Source of the DNA: a virus
Strand: one strand, 5' to 3'
Virus record (IMG/VR): IMGVR_UViG_3300024262_000278
Coordinates: 1-22,238 of that record
Length of the DNA: 22,238 nucleotides
In this document: piece by piece, positions 4,575 through 13,072 of the stretch
Layout: each line of letters opens with the position of its first letter
Position numbering within the stretch: position 1 is the stretch's first letter
Translations under genes and position numbers: made by a program
The notes under the pieces: generated by a model
Told to the model about the DNA's origin: nothing
What the model saw: only the letters and a program-made list of their open reading frames with translations
The model's database searches: none

Positions 4575-6361
4575 GTTTCTGTCCATTCGGGAACAAAAGT
4601 CTGTACACCATCCTCAACAGCAAGAAAGTTTTCACCGCCTTCTGTTATGAACTTCGCTACCTTCTTCGCAGACTCTTGAATAATGAGTGCAACATCAAAA
4701 CTACAAGCATCGCCCCTCGTCCTAGCATATTCAATGGACTCAAGAACTACATAACCATATCTAGAAACATCCATGTAATCTATCCAAAGGATTTCAATGC
4801 CAGTTGTACTATCAATGAAGGTTTTAAGATCGTCAACCATTGCTTGACTAAGTGCTTCAAAATTATATGTATATCTTTTAACTATCGGCCAATTCTTATC
4901 TCTTATAACCCTTAAGTTAGCAAGCTTCAATCTATCTAAATTAGCATTAGTAGTTCTTACTAAGTTATCACCTTTAACTGGACTTCTTAAAACTGCTTCA
5001 TATGTTGGATTACCTGTAATTGGGTATCTTAATGTGAATCCAGTAATTCTAATGAAAACTACTACAATTTTGTGATCAGCGTCAATATCAACTATTGAAA
5101 AAGTATTTGCAACAGTTTGTAAAACACCATCTAAATATATTTTATCTACCTTGTAACCAGTTTCTGGCGTCATCTGAAAAACAGCTGTATTACCTTTTGT
5201 GTAAATCGATTCCCCATCTGGACTGACAGCTCCATGGTTACCGACAATAACTTCAACAGTGTATGATGGAAGGTATGTGGTAAATGATCCTACGTCCCAC
5301 AGTGTTGGACTTGTCGCAGGTGGGTATTCATTTCCAAGAATGTCAACGACGTTGCCGTACCCGTCAGTCACTGTCGAAAGGTAAGCACCACCTAAATCAT
5401 TTATATTATACCCTTCACCCTTAAGTTGCGTGTCAATATCACCTAATATGAAATCAGCCTTACTCCCATCCTGTTGCTCACCAAGAGAATTGATATAATA
5501 CGGTCTATTCGCATGACATTGATCTGAGCCAGGCGTAGACCCGGCACTATACATATTTGTAGTTACCTCATTTTTACCAGAAATATTGAAGTTAGTTTCA
5601 ATGGTTTTATCAGGCACACTCCATGAAGGAGCAGCCTGATATTTTCCATAGCAATTCATAAAACGACTATTAGTCACTGCTGTATAATTTGTTCTATATC
5701 TGCCAAAACCTGTGCAATTAACTACATAACAATGCTGCCTTTGTGTCTGATAAAAGAACTCATCAGCTTCTTGATTATAACCAAGGCAATTGCCTATGCG
5801 AACAGCCTGTCCGCCGATGTTGGTACCTGCGTAAACACCGCCACATGTACCCAAGCCAATAGCCCAACTTGACAAATCATGGAAGATACAATTCTGTACA
5901 TAAATAGGATTAGCATAATAAGCATCAGCAAACGAAACAAACCCTGCCCTTGCGCCACCATCACCAGAGAACTCAATACCATCGATTCGCAAAAAGTCAC
6001 ATAATTTACCAGATACTGCCCAATACATGAAACATTTACCGCTCGATGGCTCCATCGTAAATGAAGACCCTGCTGTACCATCATATCTATGACCAACTTT
6101 AGCCCTTACCCACAAATACCTAGTTGAATCTGATGTAAAATATCGAGTGCCACTACCAACGGTAACATTCTCAGTGCTAACCCATGCTTCGCAATCAAGA
6201 ATAAGCCGAATATTGAGGGATACCAAATCTCTTCCCAAACTCAGATGCGCAATGAAAGCGTCCAGCGCGGCATTGATAAGCGTATACTCACCAGTATTTC
6301 CTGGCACATTTAAAGAATTTGATGCACCTGGCTTTATAGTAATTATAAAATCAGTTACCAT
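4571..6361 (-). CDS. Chimeric tail-tip protein: beta-helix, InlB-type repeat, distal-tail-like domain (596 aa)
   Basis: The ATG at 6361 overlaps the tape measure stop by 7 bp and has GGAAGG upstream. Three parts can be seen. Residues ~1-360 look like a right-handed parallel beta-helix: LRIDGIEFSGDGG, YVQNCIFHDLSSWAIGLG, YVVNCTGFGRYR, then the typical end DILGNEYPP...WDVGSF. Residues ~367-436 match the divergent InlB B-repeat pattern, with GNHGAVSPDG, TPETGYKVDKIYLDG and a final HKIVVVF. Residues ~440-596 (FTLRYP to VPEWTET) are homologous to the small protein encoded next. Beta-helix parts in phages often bind or cut surface polysaccharide, but no catalytic residues can be named here. Its position directly after the tape measure fits a tail-tip adsorption component. 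The start and the fusion are both within one uninterrupted frame. Confidence 0.7.
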   Translation of the reverse strand: MVTDFIITIKPGASNSLNVPGNTGEYTLINAALDAFIAHLSLGRDLVSLNIRLILDCEAWVSTENVTVGSGTRYFTSDSTRYLWVRAKVGHRYDGTAGSSFTMEPSSGKCFMYWAVSGKLCDFLRIDGIEFSGDGGARAGFVSFADAYYANPIYVQNCIFHDLSSWAIGLGTCGGVYAGTNIGGQAVRIGNCLGYNQEADEFFYQTQRQHCYVVNCTGFGRYRTNYTAVTNSRFMNCYGKYQAAPSWSVPDKTIETNFNISGKNEVTTNMYSAGSTPGSDQCHANRPYYINSLGEQQDGSKADFILGDIDTQLKGEGYNINDLGGAYLSTVTDGYGNVVDILGNEYPPATSPTLWDVGSFTTYLPSYTVEVIVGNHGAVSPDGESIYTKGNTAVFQMTPETGYKVDKIYLDGVLQTVANTFSIVDIDADHKIVVVFIRITGFTLRYPITGNPTYEAVLRSPVKGDNLVRTTNANLDRLKLANLRVIRDKNWPIVKRYTYNFEALSQAMVDDLKTFIDSTTGIEILWIDYMDVSRYGYVVLESIEYARTRGDACSFDVALIIQESAKKVAKFITEGGENFLAVEDGVQTFVPEWTET

Positions 6362-9300
6362 TTGAGCCTTCCGGAGTCTATAGCTCCCTTTATTCTTCTA
6401 CCAATAGCGACAACATCAGCTTCTACATTTCCATGAGATGCTACTGAAATATTAACATCCCCAACATTAGTTACTGACCCGCCACTTTCAAAGCGTTTTA
6501 CTCCACTATTCATTGCAATAAGTTGGCTATAAAATTCACCTGTTGCACCTCTATTTACAACAAACTCACCTTGACTCAGGAGTGCGGGTATTCTATCAGA
6601 ACCATGCCCGCCAAGAGCAAACATCTTAGGTACTCCACCTAGACGCTCATTAACAACTGTTGATTCTAGCGGAAGTACTTTAAAACTATCCACAACTTCT
6701 TTTAAAGCATCTGCAGCTTTAATAGTGTTCTCTAATCTTTCATTTAATTTATCTGTGTAACCACCGGCTAAGTCAATAAACTCAGCAATAGCTTCTTCAG
6801 ATGTTAGAATATCTTTTAAAACACTTCTCTCAAGACCTGTTTCAGTAGTAAGTATACCTAGCCCCTTTAACTTCTCTTTTACTATATCTGCCTCATTTTT
6901 TACTTCTACCTTTTTAATTGCTGCCAACTCTTCTTCAGCTTCTTTCAATTTTTCTCTTAAATTTAATGTACCTTCAACATTTTTTGTTAATTCTTCTTCA
7001 AAGCGAGTAAGTTTTCTAGTCTCAGCAACTATGTCTTCAAAATTTTCAAGAGCTTCTTTATAGTCTGGCCAAACTTTTTCACCTTCAGCATCTAGCTTCT
7101 CCATTTTCTTTCTAAGTGCAAAAAGTTGATAAAATAATTCATTAACTTCCTCTAAATCAACTTTTTTATCCTCTAATATTTTTTTACTGAATTTACTAAA
7201 TCTAGAATCTCTACTCAATATTTCATCATCAATTAATCTTTGTTTTATACTTCCCAAATTACTGACTTTACTTACTGCTAATCCTTTTTTCTCTTCCTCA
7301 TATTTCTTTAAAATTAATTTTAGATACGTTGCAGCTTCCTCTTGCTCTTTTTGAGCAATTGATAAGCTAGCTTGTTTCACTTTAAGACTAGACTGTTGTG
7401 CAAAATCAGCAGCTGTTTTTTGAATATCTGCAATATCTTGCTCTTCCAACTTATATTGTTTAGCTAAATCTATTAATTTTTGATAATTTCCTGCAAGTTC
7501 ATCTGAACCTTTTGTAATAACTTCAGGATCAGTAGACTCTAAAATTGCTTTTCTTGCTTCTTTGTTTGTAGCTTTCTTTAATTCCTCAAATTTAAGTATA
7601 TCTGCTTCAAGTTTAAATCTCTCATTTCTCTCTTCATCAATAGCTTTTTTCTTTGCCTTTTTTATTTCTTCTATAGCTTGCTTTTCCTGTTCCCAATAAC
7701 CTGCTTTAACCTTAAATAATTCCTTTTCAAGTTGTCTTTTTTCTTTTATAGCTAATAAGTCTGTCTTAACTTGCTCTTTTGCTTTCAAGTATTCTTCATC
7801 AAGTGCTTTAATTTTAGCTCTAATTACATAAAAAGCTTCAAAATCCTTATCTTTACGAGCTGCTTCAAGTTCTTTTAAAGCATCTAATCTCTTTTTCTTG
7901 TAATCTTCTTCATTCTTATTAAATTCATCAATCTTTTTCTTTTCTTCATCTTTCTCAGTTTTAGTAAGACTTAAACTTTGAGTTAATAATTTATCTCTAT
8001 TTTTGAATAACTCTACTAAAGCGTCAGCATCACCCTTTTTTCTAGCTTCTGCAACTTCACTGTTAATTTTTATCCTAGCCAACTTTATGTATTCAAGTTT
8101 ATTTTGTAAATCATCCTCATTTTTTAATCTTTCATTTAAAATAAACTTCTGATTACTTAAAGTTTTATCTTTAACATAGTCATCAAGTTTAACTATATCA
8201 TCTTTGTGCTTTTTGCTAATTTTTTCGGAGTCGTTAAAGTATTTTTGCAAAGATTTTTCAGTAGTTTTGAAGAATTCTTCAATATCTTTACCAGTTGCTT
8301 TAATATTATCAGCTAAGATATTAAATTGCTCTACTGATTGTTTTCTAATATTAATAGTTTGCCTAGCATTAACTTGTAAAATCTTTTGTAATGCATTTTC
8401 ACGCACTTTTGCTTCATTATCATACCTTTCTCTCACCCTTTTTGCTGCTTGTTGTTGACTTTTCATATACTCTTGCTCTAAGTCTAAAGCACTTTTATAG
8501 TATCTTTTAACAACGTAATTTAAAGCAACATAGGCTCCATAAGCGACCAGAAGAATCAAATTTATTTTATTTAATGTAGCAGCAGAAGCTGCTGATTTTT
8601 GATTAGCTTTAGCCACCAATTCTGCAGCTGCAGCACTAGCAACCTTTGCTTTAGTGTTAAGTATTTGAGTCTGAGTGTTGATGGCTTGTGCTTGAGTTGA
8701 AAGTGCAATAGCTGCAGTCTCTTTAGTTTTTGATAAAACTAAAAGCTCAGTTACCTTAATTTGATTAGCAGTAGCAACATGCCCAACATGCATCTTGTAA
8801 ATCCATTTTATAAGCATTGGGATTGCAAGATAACCCAAACCACTTACAAGGGATCGAATAACTAAATTAAGATTTAAAACATGTTTATTAAATTTGCTTA
8901 ATATACTGATCCAAGTTTGACCAATCTCTGTTGTAAAATAGTTCTTAATTTCATTAAATACTTTCTTAATTTGATAACCTTCTGTCTCCATAACTAAAGT
9001 AACAGCTTTATCATAAGATATGAAACTGTTTCTAATTTTTTCTAAATTTTTATCATAGTCCTTTAAACCTTCGCCGCTTAAAACTAAAGCACCAGTTAGA
9101 CCACGCACACGACTAAATAATTTTGCAACTTCACTGGCAGCACCTAAAGTACGCTCCTCAACGTAACCCATAAATCCACCAAAACCGTACAATTCAATAC
9201 CTTGTTTTGCTGTTTCGACACCAAGTTCACGAAATAGTTCTTTCATTTCATTAGTTGGTTTCAAAAGCTTAACAAAAATACCACGCAACTGCGTTGCAGC

Positions 9301-10914
9301 ATCCGAGTATTTTAAACCACGTACTGTTAAAACTGAGAGTGCAGACTGTAATTCTTCTAGTTCTACGCCTGTTTCAGCAGCTACAACAGCAACTCGTCCA
9401 AAACTTTCAGCCATATCAGATGCTCTGACACGACCTACTTCAATTGTTTTGAAGAATGTAGCTGCAACCCGTTCTGCATCAGAAGCTTCAAGATGGAAAG
9501 ACTTTATAGCAGCACCAATAAGGTTTTGCGCTTCAGTAGCTGTAGAAACTGTTGCTATTGAAAATTTATTTACGGTTGTTAAATATTCGGTAACTTCAGC
9601 GGCCTTAACAACTTGGTTTGATAAAGCTTGATAAGCAGCATTAGCTTGGTCTAGTACAGGAATACCAAAAGAGTCTGATAATTTTACTAAAGATTTAGAC
9701 CACTGTTCTGATGTATAATTTGCATCTTGACTTATTGTTTGAATTTCACCTATTCTTATTGAAAATTCTTGAGCTGTTTGAATACCTTCTCTTAAATAAT
9801 TTAAAACTTTAAAAAACTGTGAAAGTATCGCTTGAGATACCATCAACCTTACCATAGATTGCCAACTAAATAAAACTCCATCAATATGTTGACCTAAAGT
9901 TTTAGCCTCTTTACCAACTTGTGTAAGGGAATTTTGTAATCCTCGCATACCTTGAGCAAGTTGTAATTGCTTTCCTCGATAGCTATCAACTTTGCCCTGT
10001 GCAACTTTGCCCCACATCGTATTAAATTTATCACCAACAATACCAGCTTGCACAGCAAGTTGTTCTAACGCAAGTTTTTGAGCTTGAATACTTAATAATT
10101 GATCAGGTGTACTAATACCTCCTATAGCTGCCACTGGCCCAGCAGTTACACCTGCAACTGACCTTCTTGCAGCTCTGTTAGCAGCAGTTTGCTGGGCTTG
10201 TTGAGCAATTTTCTCTGCTTGCTGGAGTTTTTGTTGATCTATTTTTATTTGATCTACTAATTGTTCACGTAAAAGTGCTTGACGCTTTATATTCTCCCTT
10301 CGTGCTATTTGTAACTCTTTTTCAGTTGTCTCTTGCTCTAATGCAATGCGTTTTTGTGCACTTTCTGCTCTTTTTGTTTGCTCTTCTTCTATTAATTGTT
10401 TTTTTCTACTAGCAAGTTGCTCATTAACCTTTAAAACATAATTCTTAATAGCTTCACCAGTTTTATAGATATTAGAGGTGTCTTCTGCTATAAACGGCGA
10501 ATACTTTTCTGATTGTTTTTCAAAATCACTGTATGCAGGCATAGATGTTGGTAATCCTTTACCAAACCCTGCACTTTTAAATGCTGCAATAGAGTCATAA
10601 TATTTATGAGCTGCAATTTCTGCTTCAGTTAAACTTGCAATATTTTTCTTTAATCCAGTGTTTAAACTAGCAGTACTTGTGCTAAATTTACCAGCTTCAT
10701 TAACAAGTCCAGTTAAAGTTCCTTTTAAAACAGTACCATCTTTTGACATCTGCTGGAAACCAGTAGATACTTTAATCCCATCTTCAGTTATTTTAGCTGT
10801 AACAGTTCCAAGTTGGTAACCCATTGCGATATATTTTTTCCAAGCTTCAACAGCTTGATTTATCGCATTAACTAATGAATTTGCACTACCTGTAAATTCT
10901 ACATTATCACTCAT
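6355..10914 (-). CDS. Tail tape measure protein (1519 aa)
   Basis: The length, coiled-coil content and location are those of a siphophage tape measure, which templates tail length and is carried inside the tube for DNA entry. Residues ~163-255 form a charged coiled coil (EEEQTKRAESAQKR). Residues ~365-610 match the phage minor tail / TP901 core: EFSIRIGEIQTISQD, AYQALSNQ, FSIATVSTATEAQNLIGAA, SAL-x-x-LTVRGL and ATQLRGIFVKLLKP. Two hydrophobic stretches (~683-706 and ~783-802) could insert in the host membrane. Residues ~805-1400 are Lys/Glu-rich helices. The C-terminus has ALLSQGEFVVNRGA, frequent at tape measure ends. The ATG directly abuts the previous TAA. At the approximate 0.15 nm per residue known for lambda-like tails, the tail would be a little over 200 nm. 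No peptidase or lysozyme motif was found. Confidence 0.93.
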   Translation of the reverse strand: MSDNVEFTGSANSLVNAINQAVEAWKKYIAMGYQLGTVTAKITEDGIKVSTGFQQMSKDGTVLKGTLTGLVNEAGKFSTSTASLNTGLKKNIASLTEAEIAAHKYYDSIAAFKSAGFGKGLPTSMPAYSDFEKQSEKYSPFIAEDTSNIYKTGEAIKNYVLKVNEQLASRKKQLIEEEQTKRAESAQKRIALEQETTEKELQIARRENIKRQALLREQLVDQIKIDQQKLQQAEKIAQQAQQTAANRAARRSVAGVTAGPVAAIGGISTPDQLLSIQAQKLALEQLAVQAGIVGDKFNTMWGKVAQGKVDSYRGKQLQLAQGMRGLQNSLTQVGKEAKTLGQHIDGVLFSWQSMVRLMVSQAILSQFFKVLNYLREGIQTAQEFSIRIGEIQTISQDANYTSEQWSKSLVKLSDSFGIPVLDQANAAYQALSNQVVKAAEVTEYLTTVNKFSIATVSTATEAQNLIGAAIKSFHLEASDAERVAATFFKTIEVGRVRASDMAESFGRVAVVAAETGVELEELQSALSVLTVRGLKYSDAATQLRGIFVKLLKPTNEMKELFRELGVETAKQGIELYGFGGFMGYVEERTLGAASEVAKLFSRVRGLTGALVLSGEGLKDYDKNLEKIRNSFISYDKAVTLVMETEGYQIKKVFNEIKNYFTTEIGQTWISILSKFNKHVLNLNLVIRSLVSGLGYLAIPMLIKWIYKMHVGHVATANQIKVTELLVLSKTKETAAIALSTQAQAINTQTQILNTKAKVASAAAAELVAKANQKSAASAATLNKINLILLVAYGAYVALNYVVKRYYKSALDLEQEYMKSQQQAAKRVRERYDNEAKVRENALQKILQVNARQTINIRKQSVEQFNILADNIKATGKDIEEFFKTTEKSLQKYFNDSEKISKKHKDDIVKLDDYVKDKTLSNQKFILNERLKNEDDLQNKLEYIKLARIKINSEVAEARKKGDADALVELFKNRDKLLTQSLSLTKTEKDEEKKKIDEFNKNEEDYKKKRLDALKELEAARKDKDFEAFYVIRAKIKALDEEYLKAKEQVKTDLLAIKEKRQLEKELFKVKAGYWEQEKQAIEEIKKAKKKAIDEERNERFKLEADILKFEELKKATNKEARKAILESTDPEVITKGSDELAGNYQKLIDLAKQYKLEEQDIADIQKTAADFAQQSSLKVKQASLSIAQKEQEEAATYLKLILKKYEEEKKGLAVSKVSNLGSIKQRLIDDEILSRDSRFSKFSKKILEDKKVDLEEVNELFYQLFALRKKMEKLDAEGEKVWPDYKEALENFEDIVAETRKLTRFEEELTKNVEGTLNLREKLKEAEEELAAIKKVEVKNEADIVKEKLKGLGILTTETGLERSVLKDILTSEEAIAEFIDLAGGYTDKLNERLENTIKAADALKEVVDSFKVLPLESTVVNERLGGVPKMFALGGHGSDRIPALLSQGEFVVNRGATGEFYSQLIAMNSGVKRFESGGSVTNVGDVNISVASHGNVEADVVAIGRRIKGAIDSGRLKW

Positions 10915-11526
10915 TTATTCATCCTCTGGATGAGGTATTACCAAACCTTTTAGCGCCCAGCTTTTAAACTCTGTTTTAAGTTTCTTCGCATCCCAATTAG
11001 CATGTATGGCTTTCTCAAAAGCTGCTTTACCAGCCTTCATAGCATTCCAATGTTGGCCGCCAGACCAATTACCACCTTCATGCAACCACCATTGTAATAT
11101 TTTTATCTCCATTTTAAATTTTAAAACTGCTTTACTAACTGTTCCATAACTTACTGTATAAAAATCTTCTGACAAAATTTCACCAGCAGTTTGGCTTTTA
11201 GATGCCATATTATTAGATGACCATCTACCATAAAGACCAGTATGCCCTGGTCTAGTTTCGCGTTTTTTGGCAGCTAATTTAACACGAAAAGCCATCAAAA
11301 ATTTAAAATCCTTAGCCATCTTGTACATTGAAGCTGCTGCCATACCAGTATCAACATGGACTTTAGCTAAAGTTGCCAGTCCACAGGCTCTAATACCTTT
11401 ATTCCAAAGTATTCTTAAATAATTTAACAATCCTTTTGTCATGATTCTTTCATTAAAATACCTTTCTGGTCGTGACCAAATACGCCCTAACTTTATATTA
11501 AAAAGTCCCTGGCCCTGTTCTACCAT
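10915..11526 (-). CDS. Uncharacterised minor virion protein, possibly gp10-like connector (203 aa)
   Basis: This gene lies between the tail chaperone and the tape measure. Its start overlaps the last 29 bases of the frameshifted chaperone frame, and it ends directly against the tape measure start. The start ATG has GAGG upstream but no perfect site. The product is basic and helical at the N-terminus (about residues 20-95), with KVHVDTGMAAASMYKMAK. That is reminiscent of the VDTG-x-x-x-x-S strand-helix of HK97 gp10-like neck proteins. Further on it has an SYGTVSKAVLKFKMEIKILQWWLHEGGNW segment in the middle and a charged tail. I do not recognise a family with certainty. Position and basic character fit a minor neck or tail protein. 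No signal peptide, membrane helix or catalytic motif is seen. Confidence 0.6.
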   Translation of the reverse strand: MVEQGQGLFNIKLGRIWSRPERYFNERIMTKGLLNYLRILWNKGIRACGLATLAKVHVDTGMAAASMYKMAKDFKFLMAFRVKLAAKKRETRPGHTGLYGRWSSNNMASKSQTAGEILSEDFYTVSYGTVSKAVLKFKMEIKILQWWLHEGGNWSGGQHWNAMKAGKAAFEKAIHANWDAKKLKTEFKSWALKGLVIPHPEDE

Positions 11527-12168
11527 TTAATGCCTCAGCTTCCTCATGGTCTCTGACAAAGTTAAAGGACAAAATATGTGCTTGAGTTTCAACATCACAA
11601 TCTTCCCAACAATCTTTAACCTCAGGAGGCTTTATACCTAATCTTTCACACGCTCGCCAGATACTGTAGAGGCTTTTCCTGTACGGGGGAAAGATGATTC
11701 GTCTGACTCCTTCCCCTGACCAGCTAAAAAATCCTTCGTAGCCTTATCTATCTTTTCCTGATTCAGTCCACAAGCATCGATAACAATTTGAACAATTCTT
11801 GCAATTTCAGCTTGCGAAAATCCATCATCTGTAAGTTCGACTTCCCAATTAGCCCAAGTTTCAGGCTTAAGATAATCAACAGTCTCCCATACAATTTCTG
11901 GAGTAGCTTTTAATGACTCCAAAATCATCCAAGTAGTCTTATACTCTGACCACTTTGAAACCTGCTCTAAATATACTGAATCTTCAACATTACTTACAGT
12001 TATCCCACCCGGCTTCAAAACTTTAGGTGGAAGAGGCGCCGGACAAAGTTTATCAAATTTTTCATAATTTTTAACAGAATGCGCCTTAAAAATAACATCA
12101 AAACCTTGACGCGGTATTACTACCACCTCAATTGGACGACTTTCAAACTTTTTTCCTGCATACTTCAT
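11498..12168 (-). CDS. Tail assembly chaperone, -1 frameshift product (gpGT-like, ~223 aa)
   Basis: The short chaperone frame stops at 11640-11638, but the -1 frame is open from 11743 to a TAA at 11500-11498. A slip of -1 in this overlap yields a ~223-residue fusion. The extension contains LYSIWRACERLGIKPPEV, CWEDCDVETQAHILSFN and FVRDHEEAE. This matches the gpT-like C-terminal pattern of tail chaperones (an aromatic, then LGI-PP, then WED, ETQA and an N-x-x-R-x-x-E-E end). In lambda the gpG and gpGT forms are made in a fixed ratio and guide tube polymerisation around the tape measure. Two slippery heptamers fit the zero-frame spacing (11725-11731 and 11686-11692). The frame does not start independently: no ribosome binding site or start codon explains it. 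Reported as a joined CDS; strictly it is two segments. Confidence 0.85.
11638..12168 (-). CDS. Tail assembly chaperone, short form (gpG-like, 176 aa)
   Basis: I start at the ATG at 12168, which has AAAGGA six bases upstream. An in-frame TTG 15 bases further upstream is less likely because it would consume that site. The product is mixed alpha/beta: an N-terminal KKFESRPIEVVVIPR strand region, a middle helix (LEQVSKWSEYKTTWMILESL) and a polar C-terminus that reaches the frameshift zone. Location between the tail tube gene and the tape measure is the standard site of siphophage tail assembly chaperones (lambda gpG). These bind the tape measure and recruit tube subunits, and are absent from the finished virion. 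The last 16-34 residues differ between this and the frameshifted form. Confidence 0.82.
   Translation of the reverse strand: MKYAGKKFESRPIEVVVIPRQGFDVIFKAHSVKNYEKFDKLCPAPLPPKVLKPGGITVSNVEDSVYLEQVSKWSEYKTTWMILESLKATPEIVWETVDYLKPETWANWEVELTDDGFSQAEIARIVQIVIDACGLNQEKIDKATKDFLAGQGKESDESSFPRTGKASTVSGERVKD
11686..11692 (-). promoter_or_regulatory. Slippery heptamer TTTCCCC (candidate -1 frameshift site)
   Basis: In the zero frame the codons read TCT-TTC-CCC, giving T-TTC-CCC, an exact X-XXY-YYZ heptamer. After a -1 slip the tRNAs re-pair on TTT and CCC. An SD-like AAGGAG (11707-11712) lies 14 bases upstream, near the spacing at which internal SD elements stimulate -1 slipping in E. coli dnaX (about 10 bases). 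Confidence 0.65.
11707..11712 (-). promoter_or_regulatory. Internal Shine-Dalgarno-like AAGGAG, possible frameshift stimulator
   Basis: AAGGAG occurs inside the chaperone gene (codons AAG-GAG) 14 bases before the TTTCCCC heptamer and 12 bases after the other heptamer. It is not positioned to start any gene. Upstream SD-like sequences are known stimulators of bacterial -1 frameshifting, so its presence between the two slippery sites is suggestive. It is also just two ordinary Lys-Glu codons, so it could be coincidental. Confidence 0.4.
11725..11731 (-). promoter_or_regulatory. Slippery heptamer TTTTTTA (alternative -1 frameshift site)
   Basis: The zero-frame codons GAT-TTT-TTA give T-TTT-TTA, the same heptamer type as the HIV-1 gag-pol site. 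The -1 frame is already open here, since its last upstream stop is at 11746-11744. Slipping here adds 13 more -1-frame residues than slipping at 11686-11692. The sequence cannot say which site is used, or whether both are. Confidence 0.5.
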
Positions 12169-12271: not shown

Positions 12272-13072
12272 TTAAGTAACAGTTTCTGGGCCGTCAGACG
12301 TAATAAGCGAATGCCTACCTACAGTATCAACTGACCAAACAGAGACATAGTAATCACCAGCTGTTAAGCCAGTGAATATATATTCCTCAACACCAATAGC
12401 AATCTCTACGATTGTCTGAGTTCCAGTCGCAATTGGGAGTGTTGGTGCACTTCCTTCATCTGTTTCACTCAAAACAGCTACAATCCTATCAACATCAGTA
12501 GTTACAACAGGATCAGTCCATGCAGCTTTAGCAGAACCGAGTGCAACTTCATCCGTAAGAGTCAAAACAGACACTGCTTCAGGATCAGTCAAGATACGGG
12601 ACTTAACAGCATCTTCTACGTTACAGTTGCCCGCACAGGCAACAGTTCCCGCTCTAACATCATGATCCAAAGACTCATAACGAAAGTCTGGAAGCGCAAT
12701 AATTTCACCACCAGTTGTGCCACAATTTGGATCATTTTCAATCCTAATGTCAACAGCATAGGGTTCGCAGTCATCGTCTGAAGCAGACTGCCAATCAGAT
12801 GCATTACCTTCTTGCTTCAGTGCTTCTTCGACAGTCGGCACAGATTCTGAGGTTTTAGATGTAATGTAATCCCACGTAAAGCCAAAGGATACGGTCATCA
12901 CTTCAGCATCAGCATTGCGAACAGTATCAAGGTTTCCACGATCTTTGACGTAGGTTCGAGGTTTTCTTTCACCGTACGTTAGGTTTCCTTCTCCAATTTT
13001 AATAGTGATATCATGTGCACCATTCTTATCAGAGATTTTAAAAAGGCAGTTATTAATGTTAATTACAGCCAT
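12272..13072 (-). CDS. Major tail (tube) protein with C-terminal Ig/FN3-like domain (266 aa)
   Basis: The gene sits directly before the tail chaperone and after the tail terminator, the canonical place of the tail tube subunit. The ATG has AGGAG eight bases upstream, overlapping the previous stop. Residues ~1-165 form the tube domain: an N-terminal MAVININNCLFKISDK strand, then GEGNLTYGERKPRTYVKDRG, VMTVSFGFTWDYI and the late FRYESLDHDVRAGTVACAG stretch. Several Cys residues (C102, C117, C146, C150) are present. Residues ~167-266 resemble an Ig or fibronectin-III fold ending in TGLTAGDYYVSVWSVD, a decoration known on siphophage tube proteins that projects from the tail surface. A strong hairpin lies just downstream. 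The tube role comes mainly from order and size; the FN3-like tail is recognised by pattern. Confidence 0.83.
   Translation of the reverse strand: MAVININNCLFKISDKNGAHDITIKIGEGNLTYGERKPRTYVKDRGNLDTVRNADAEVMTVSFGFTWDYITSKTSESVPTVEEALKQEGNASDWQSASDDDCEPYAVDIRIENDPNCGTTGGEIIALPDFRYESLDHDVRAGTVACAGNCNVEDAVKSRILTDPEAVSVLTLTDEVALGSAKAAWTDPVVTTDVDRIVAVLSETDEGSAPTLPIATGTQTIVEIAIGVEEYIFTGLTAGDYYVSVWSVDTVGRHSLITSDGPETVT

Follow-up and report, generated by a model that had tools for sequence, protein, structure and literature searches.

One gene in this viral genome very probably produces a pair of tail assembly chaperones by programmed -1 ribosomal frameshifting; we put the probability of this reading at roughly 94%. 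The window, by which we mean the whole stretch of DNA analysed, is a 22,238-base IMG/VR virus record with 39% GC and nearly all of its genes on the minus strand. These run in the order terminase, portal, head-tail adaptor, scaffold, capsid, several small genes, presumed tail tube, chaperone, one further gene and tape measure. The features that concern us are the following.

12272..13072, minus strand: presumed major tail tube protein, 266 aa, named from position and conservation
11638..12168, minus strand: 0-frame tail assembly chaperone (gpG-equivalent), ATG at 12168, 176 aa
11725..11731, minus strand: slippery heptamer T TTT TTA in the X_XXY_YYZ register
11686..11716, minus strand: candidate stimulatory hairpin, 9-bp stem and 13-nt loop
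11498..11725, minus strand: -1 frame extension (gpT-equivalent domain), 75 aa past the slip plus the stop codon
10915..11526, minus strand: extra gene separating chaperone from tape measure, conserved, with homologues in 15 loci
6355..10914, minus strand: tail length tape measure protein, 1519 aa (PHROG 991, E 5.3e-26; Pfam PhageMin_Tail, E 1.2e-23)

Our case is built on the reading frames, their register, the conservation of both the site and the peptide, and the coding signature of the -1 frame. The chaperone ATG lies 6 nt downstream of a ribosome-binding-like AAAGGA (12180-12175), and the 0 frame closes with a TAG at 11640-11638. The open stretch of the -1 frame starts at 11743 and runs to a TAA at 11500-11498. 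The frame ends agree with those of the initial annotation, which had proposed a hidden -1 frameshift extension of the tail chaperone with the short frame ending at 11638. That proposal holds up: the -1 peptide is conserved, a slip site lies in register, there is no early start in the -1 frame, and the gene lies upstream of the tape measure gene. The slip site itself, T TTT TTA at 11731-11725, had not been named and was identified here. Its 0-frame codons are TTT TTA, which places it in exact X_XXY_YYZ register, and this heptamer is the junction, with 11743 being merely the edge of the open -1 stretch. Tandem slippage here is predicted to yield a fusion of 223 aa (148 aa from the 0 frame and 75 aa from the -1 frame) in which ...KDFL is joined to SWSGEG...

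Viral contigs searched directly with the window's chaperone and with the next gene gave no relatives, nor did nucleotide and tblastn searches of named phages, and no named phage is similar to the window at the DNA level. The first relatives came from a scan with the window's major capsid protein, which returned 33 contigs. Among these, tblastn located the 0-frame half in 25 and the -1 half in 24, the latter with 38-55% identity to the window's -1 peptide. In every relative having both halves (24/24) it is the -1 frame that encodes the second half, and all 24 carry TTTTTTA in register at the junction. As a control, a -1 extension 45 or more codons long together with an in-register X_XXY_YYZ heptamer was present in 4 of 365 other long ORFs from the same loci. 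On these sequence comparisons, the pattern at the chaperone junction exceeds chance.

We then have a wider scan, made with the -1 domain alignment, which yielded 200 stretches encoding relatives; 80 were kept. A further 3 came from bacterial genome bins. Two -1 domain relatives, L119 and L120, are in bins labelled Anaerolinea and Patescibacteria, which is a possible hint of the host, or the contigs may be mis-binned phage. Profile searches of the wider set found 107 loci with both halves, the second half lying in the -1 register in 107/107, corresponding to 70 distinct loci at 90% identity. A single-base insertion or deletion can mimic a change of frame, and the two halves could in principle be one in-frame gene split by a sequencing or assembly error. 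The same arrangement in all 107 loci, drawn from many independent metagenomes, refutes this explanation, to which we assign a vanishingly small probability.

Near-duplicates occurred among the 24 relatives, and the alignment therefore comprises 20 non-redundant sequences plus the window (21 sequences). The -1 domain has 9 invariant columns and keeps the pattern FFSxSG...P..RT..Y..WRACER..I.PP....W.......QA.L.AY..IR..EE, its conservation starting at the slip site itself (the FFS motif). Among relatives the 0-frame tail past the slip ranges from 6 to 31 codons, and the -1 domain is steady at 68-84 aa. Downstream of the 0-frame stop, differences between family members at -1 codon positions 1, 2 and 3 stand at 0.448, 0.358 and 0.656. 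They are thus concentrated at third positions in a region where only the -1 frame codes, the pattern to be expected of a constrained coding frame.

A conserved -1 frame could also be a separate gene with its own start, reached through coupling or re-initiation at the 0-frame stop. Phages often have separate genes that overlap, and the lambda record itself shows T as a CDS of its own. However, the first ATG, GTG or TTG in the window's -1 frame lies 159 nt past the slip, leaving 53 codons start-free and making independent initiation unlikely, and the start positions in relatives are not conserved. Moreover, the conservation begins at the slip site, and a separately initiated gene would leave the heptamer without a reason for retention. 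We consider this explanation extremely improbable.

The site itself varies across the family. In the 70 distinct loci the junction reads TTTTTTA in 40, TTTTCTA in 20, TTTTCTT in 3 and something else in 7, so that about 40% lack TTTTTTA, most of these having GTT TTT CTA or GTT TTT CTT as their 0-frame codons. A AAT TTC is the site in four loci of the extended set, two of them distinct (L079 and L110) and counted among the 7. These sites bear on whether RNA polymerase slipping on the T6 run, and not the ribosome, makes the fusion. The six-T run is conserved in most members, as that explanation would have it. The A AAT TTC of L079 and L110, however, is a proper tandem slip heptamer and not a homopolymer, and the A after T6, needless for a polymerase, is kept in 24/24 relatives of the first scan. 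Polymerase slippage is therefore very unlikely in our judgement.

Returning to ribosomal frameshifting, a sister group consisting of L040 and about 30 other loci has mostly GTTTTTCTA or GTTTTTCTT at the junction, with the C-terminal half still in the -1 frame. On such sites Phe-tRNA can re-pair on TTT in the -1 frame and Leu-tRNA from CTA would re-pair poorly on TCT, which suggests slippage in the P site only. We tentatively propose, at somewhat less than even odds, that part of this one chaperone family has seen its slip site drift away from the canonical tandem heptamer T TTT TTA, mostly to GTTTTTCTA or GTTTTTCTT and similar sites, and that the sister group may frameshift by P-site-only slippage with the same -1 product kept. 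A group lacking the strict heptamer is unusual and mildly surprising, but it has precedent, because PRFect (PMC10885494) reports phage chaperones with annotated frameshifts that lack X_XXY_YYZ, and it includes in its motif list 'five', which by the naming scheme would be five identical bases in a run.

For the window, we infer that slippage occurs, how efficient it is and what the two products bind, as follows. Most ribosomes would stay in the 0 frame and produce the 176-aa short chaperone. A minority, on reaching T TTT TTA (11731-11725) with Phe-tRNA on the P-site TTT and Leu-tRNA on the A-site TTA, would move back by one base and read the -1 frame to 11498 to give the 223-aa fusion. If lambda gpG/gpGT is a guide, the common N-terminal part may coat the tape measure protein, and tail tube subunits may be recruited by the -1 domain.

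Slippage is probably aided by the candidate hairpin, which starts 8 nt 3' of the heptamer. In the window RNA its arms are GGGGAAGGA and UCUUUCCCC, and the folding energy of the segment is -19.3 kcal/mol (z -2.91), with none of 200 shuffles equally stable. Over 71 family members the folding z is weak, averaging -0.41 +/- 0.15, which does not demonstrate a common stimulatory structure across the family, and an Rfam search gave no match. A second in-register heptamer, T TTC CCC at 11692-11686, falls within the hairpin's 3' arm, is absent from relatives and was set aside as chance.

The chaperone gene sits between the tape measure gene, recognised by PHROG and Pfam profiles, and the tube gene, for which only position and conservation speak. 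The placement between tube and tape measure described by the initial annotation stands, save that one extra gene, 10915-11526, intervenes before the tape measure gene. No profile names the product of 12272..13072 as a tail tube protein, the most being Ig_J at E 0.025. Its N-terminal ~160 aa are conserved and its C-terminal part is longer in the window phage. This C-terminal part weakly resembles Ig-like profiles (Ig_J E 0.025; phrog_16410 E 0.0036) and, among the relatives found, is common only to the contig behind L002 and L003.

The extra gene may start at 11526 or at M28 (11442), the latter because alignments with most relatives begin only at about residue 24-56. A 111-bp gap that had been noted after the short frame is arithmetically correct to the mechanical start at 11526. 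The product carries the motif VDTGM..AS and has no convincing PHROG and no PDB match. In many relatives the start codon of its homologue overlaps or abuts the -1 frame stop.

The motifs WRACERLGIKPPEV and CWEDCDVETQAHILSFN are both present in the window's -1 translation, as the initial annotation had said; the gpT-like pattern it saw in them was found by no profile search, and comparison of the -1 peptide with gpT-like profiles gave no Pfam, PHROG, NCBIfam or hhalign match. Against the Pfam and PHROG chaperone families, no -1 domain among 21 members had a gpT-type match at E <= 1. The best PHROG match of any -1 domain was to phrog_17856, of unknown function, at E 4.3e-6 in 1 of 21 members, and phrog_9001, a 'tail assembly chaperone', reached only E 0.21. 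NCBIfam gave no chaperone match for the chaperone halves, and the N-terminal half had no convincing gpG or named chaperone match in Pfam or PHROG. With hhalign, the -1 domain aligned to lambda T with a probability of 0.4%, and both halves against lambda G and T stayed below 1%. AlphaFold2 models were of fair to good quality, with a pLDDT of 87 for the first 148 aa and 76 for the C-terminal part, which includes two confident helices. Fold searches with these models gave no match below E 0.001; the best viral matches of the N-terminal domain were at E 0.004-0.1, one of them, at E 0.11, being an annotated tail assembly chaperone. It is thus gene position, architecture and frameshift, and not detectable homology, that mark the protein as a tail assembly chaperone, and 'gpT-like' applies to position and mechanism only.

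We take the slip site of lambda to be G GGA AAG, unlike the T TTT TTA of the window. The lambda system also differs in that the window has an extra gene before its tape measure gene and in that neither window half has a detectable sequence relation to it (hhalign below 1%). The two systems are alike in shifting to the -1 frame towards the end of the short gene, which gives a C-terminally extended minor product, and in their position between tube and tape measure (PMC5009743). Long-tailed phages retain such chaperone frameshifting even though their sequences have little similarity (PMC5009743).

Distant relatives of the window's capsid protein occur in Streptomyces phage Keanu, Gordonia phage VanLee and Vibrio phages. 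Keanu (gp19/gp20) and VanLee (gp16/gp17) resemble the window in this related major capsid protein and in having annotated joined chaperones, which there lie directly before the tape measure gene. Unlike the window, both carry GGGAAAA close to where the frame changes; that of VanLee is in slip register and that of Keanu is not. Profiles of both halves of the window family gave no significant match to the tail regions of Keanu, VanLee and Vibrio phage KF6. In KF6 (L038 11314-12158), the hypothetical gene KF6_034 lies between tube and tape measure, and at its end GGGAAAC stands in register; a -1 frame of about 130 open codons is present there, with only the 3' part annotated, as a separate ORF. 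KF6_034 is probably an unannotated frameshifted chaperone.

Together, these data describe an uncatalogued chaperone family that uses a well-known textbook mechanism. The family is absent from PHROGs, Pfam and NCBIfam, save for one member's weak match to a PHROG of unknown function. Automatic gene calling, which considers single-frame genes only, would drop the second domain of the chaperone. The annotation rule is to find TTTTTTA or GTTTTTCTA and read on in the -1 frame, and it applies to at least 200 viral contigs. If the drift of the slip site is true, the family would offer a natural series for the study of slip-site evolution.
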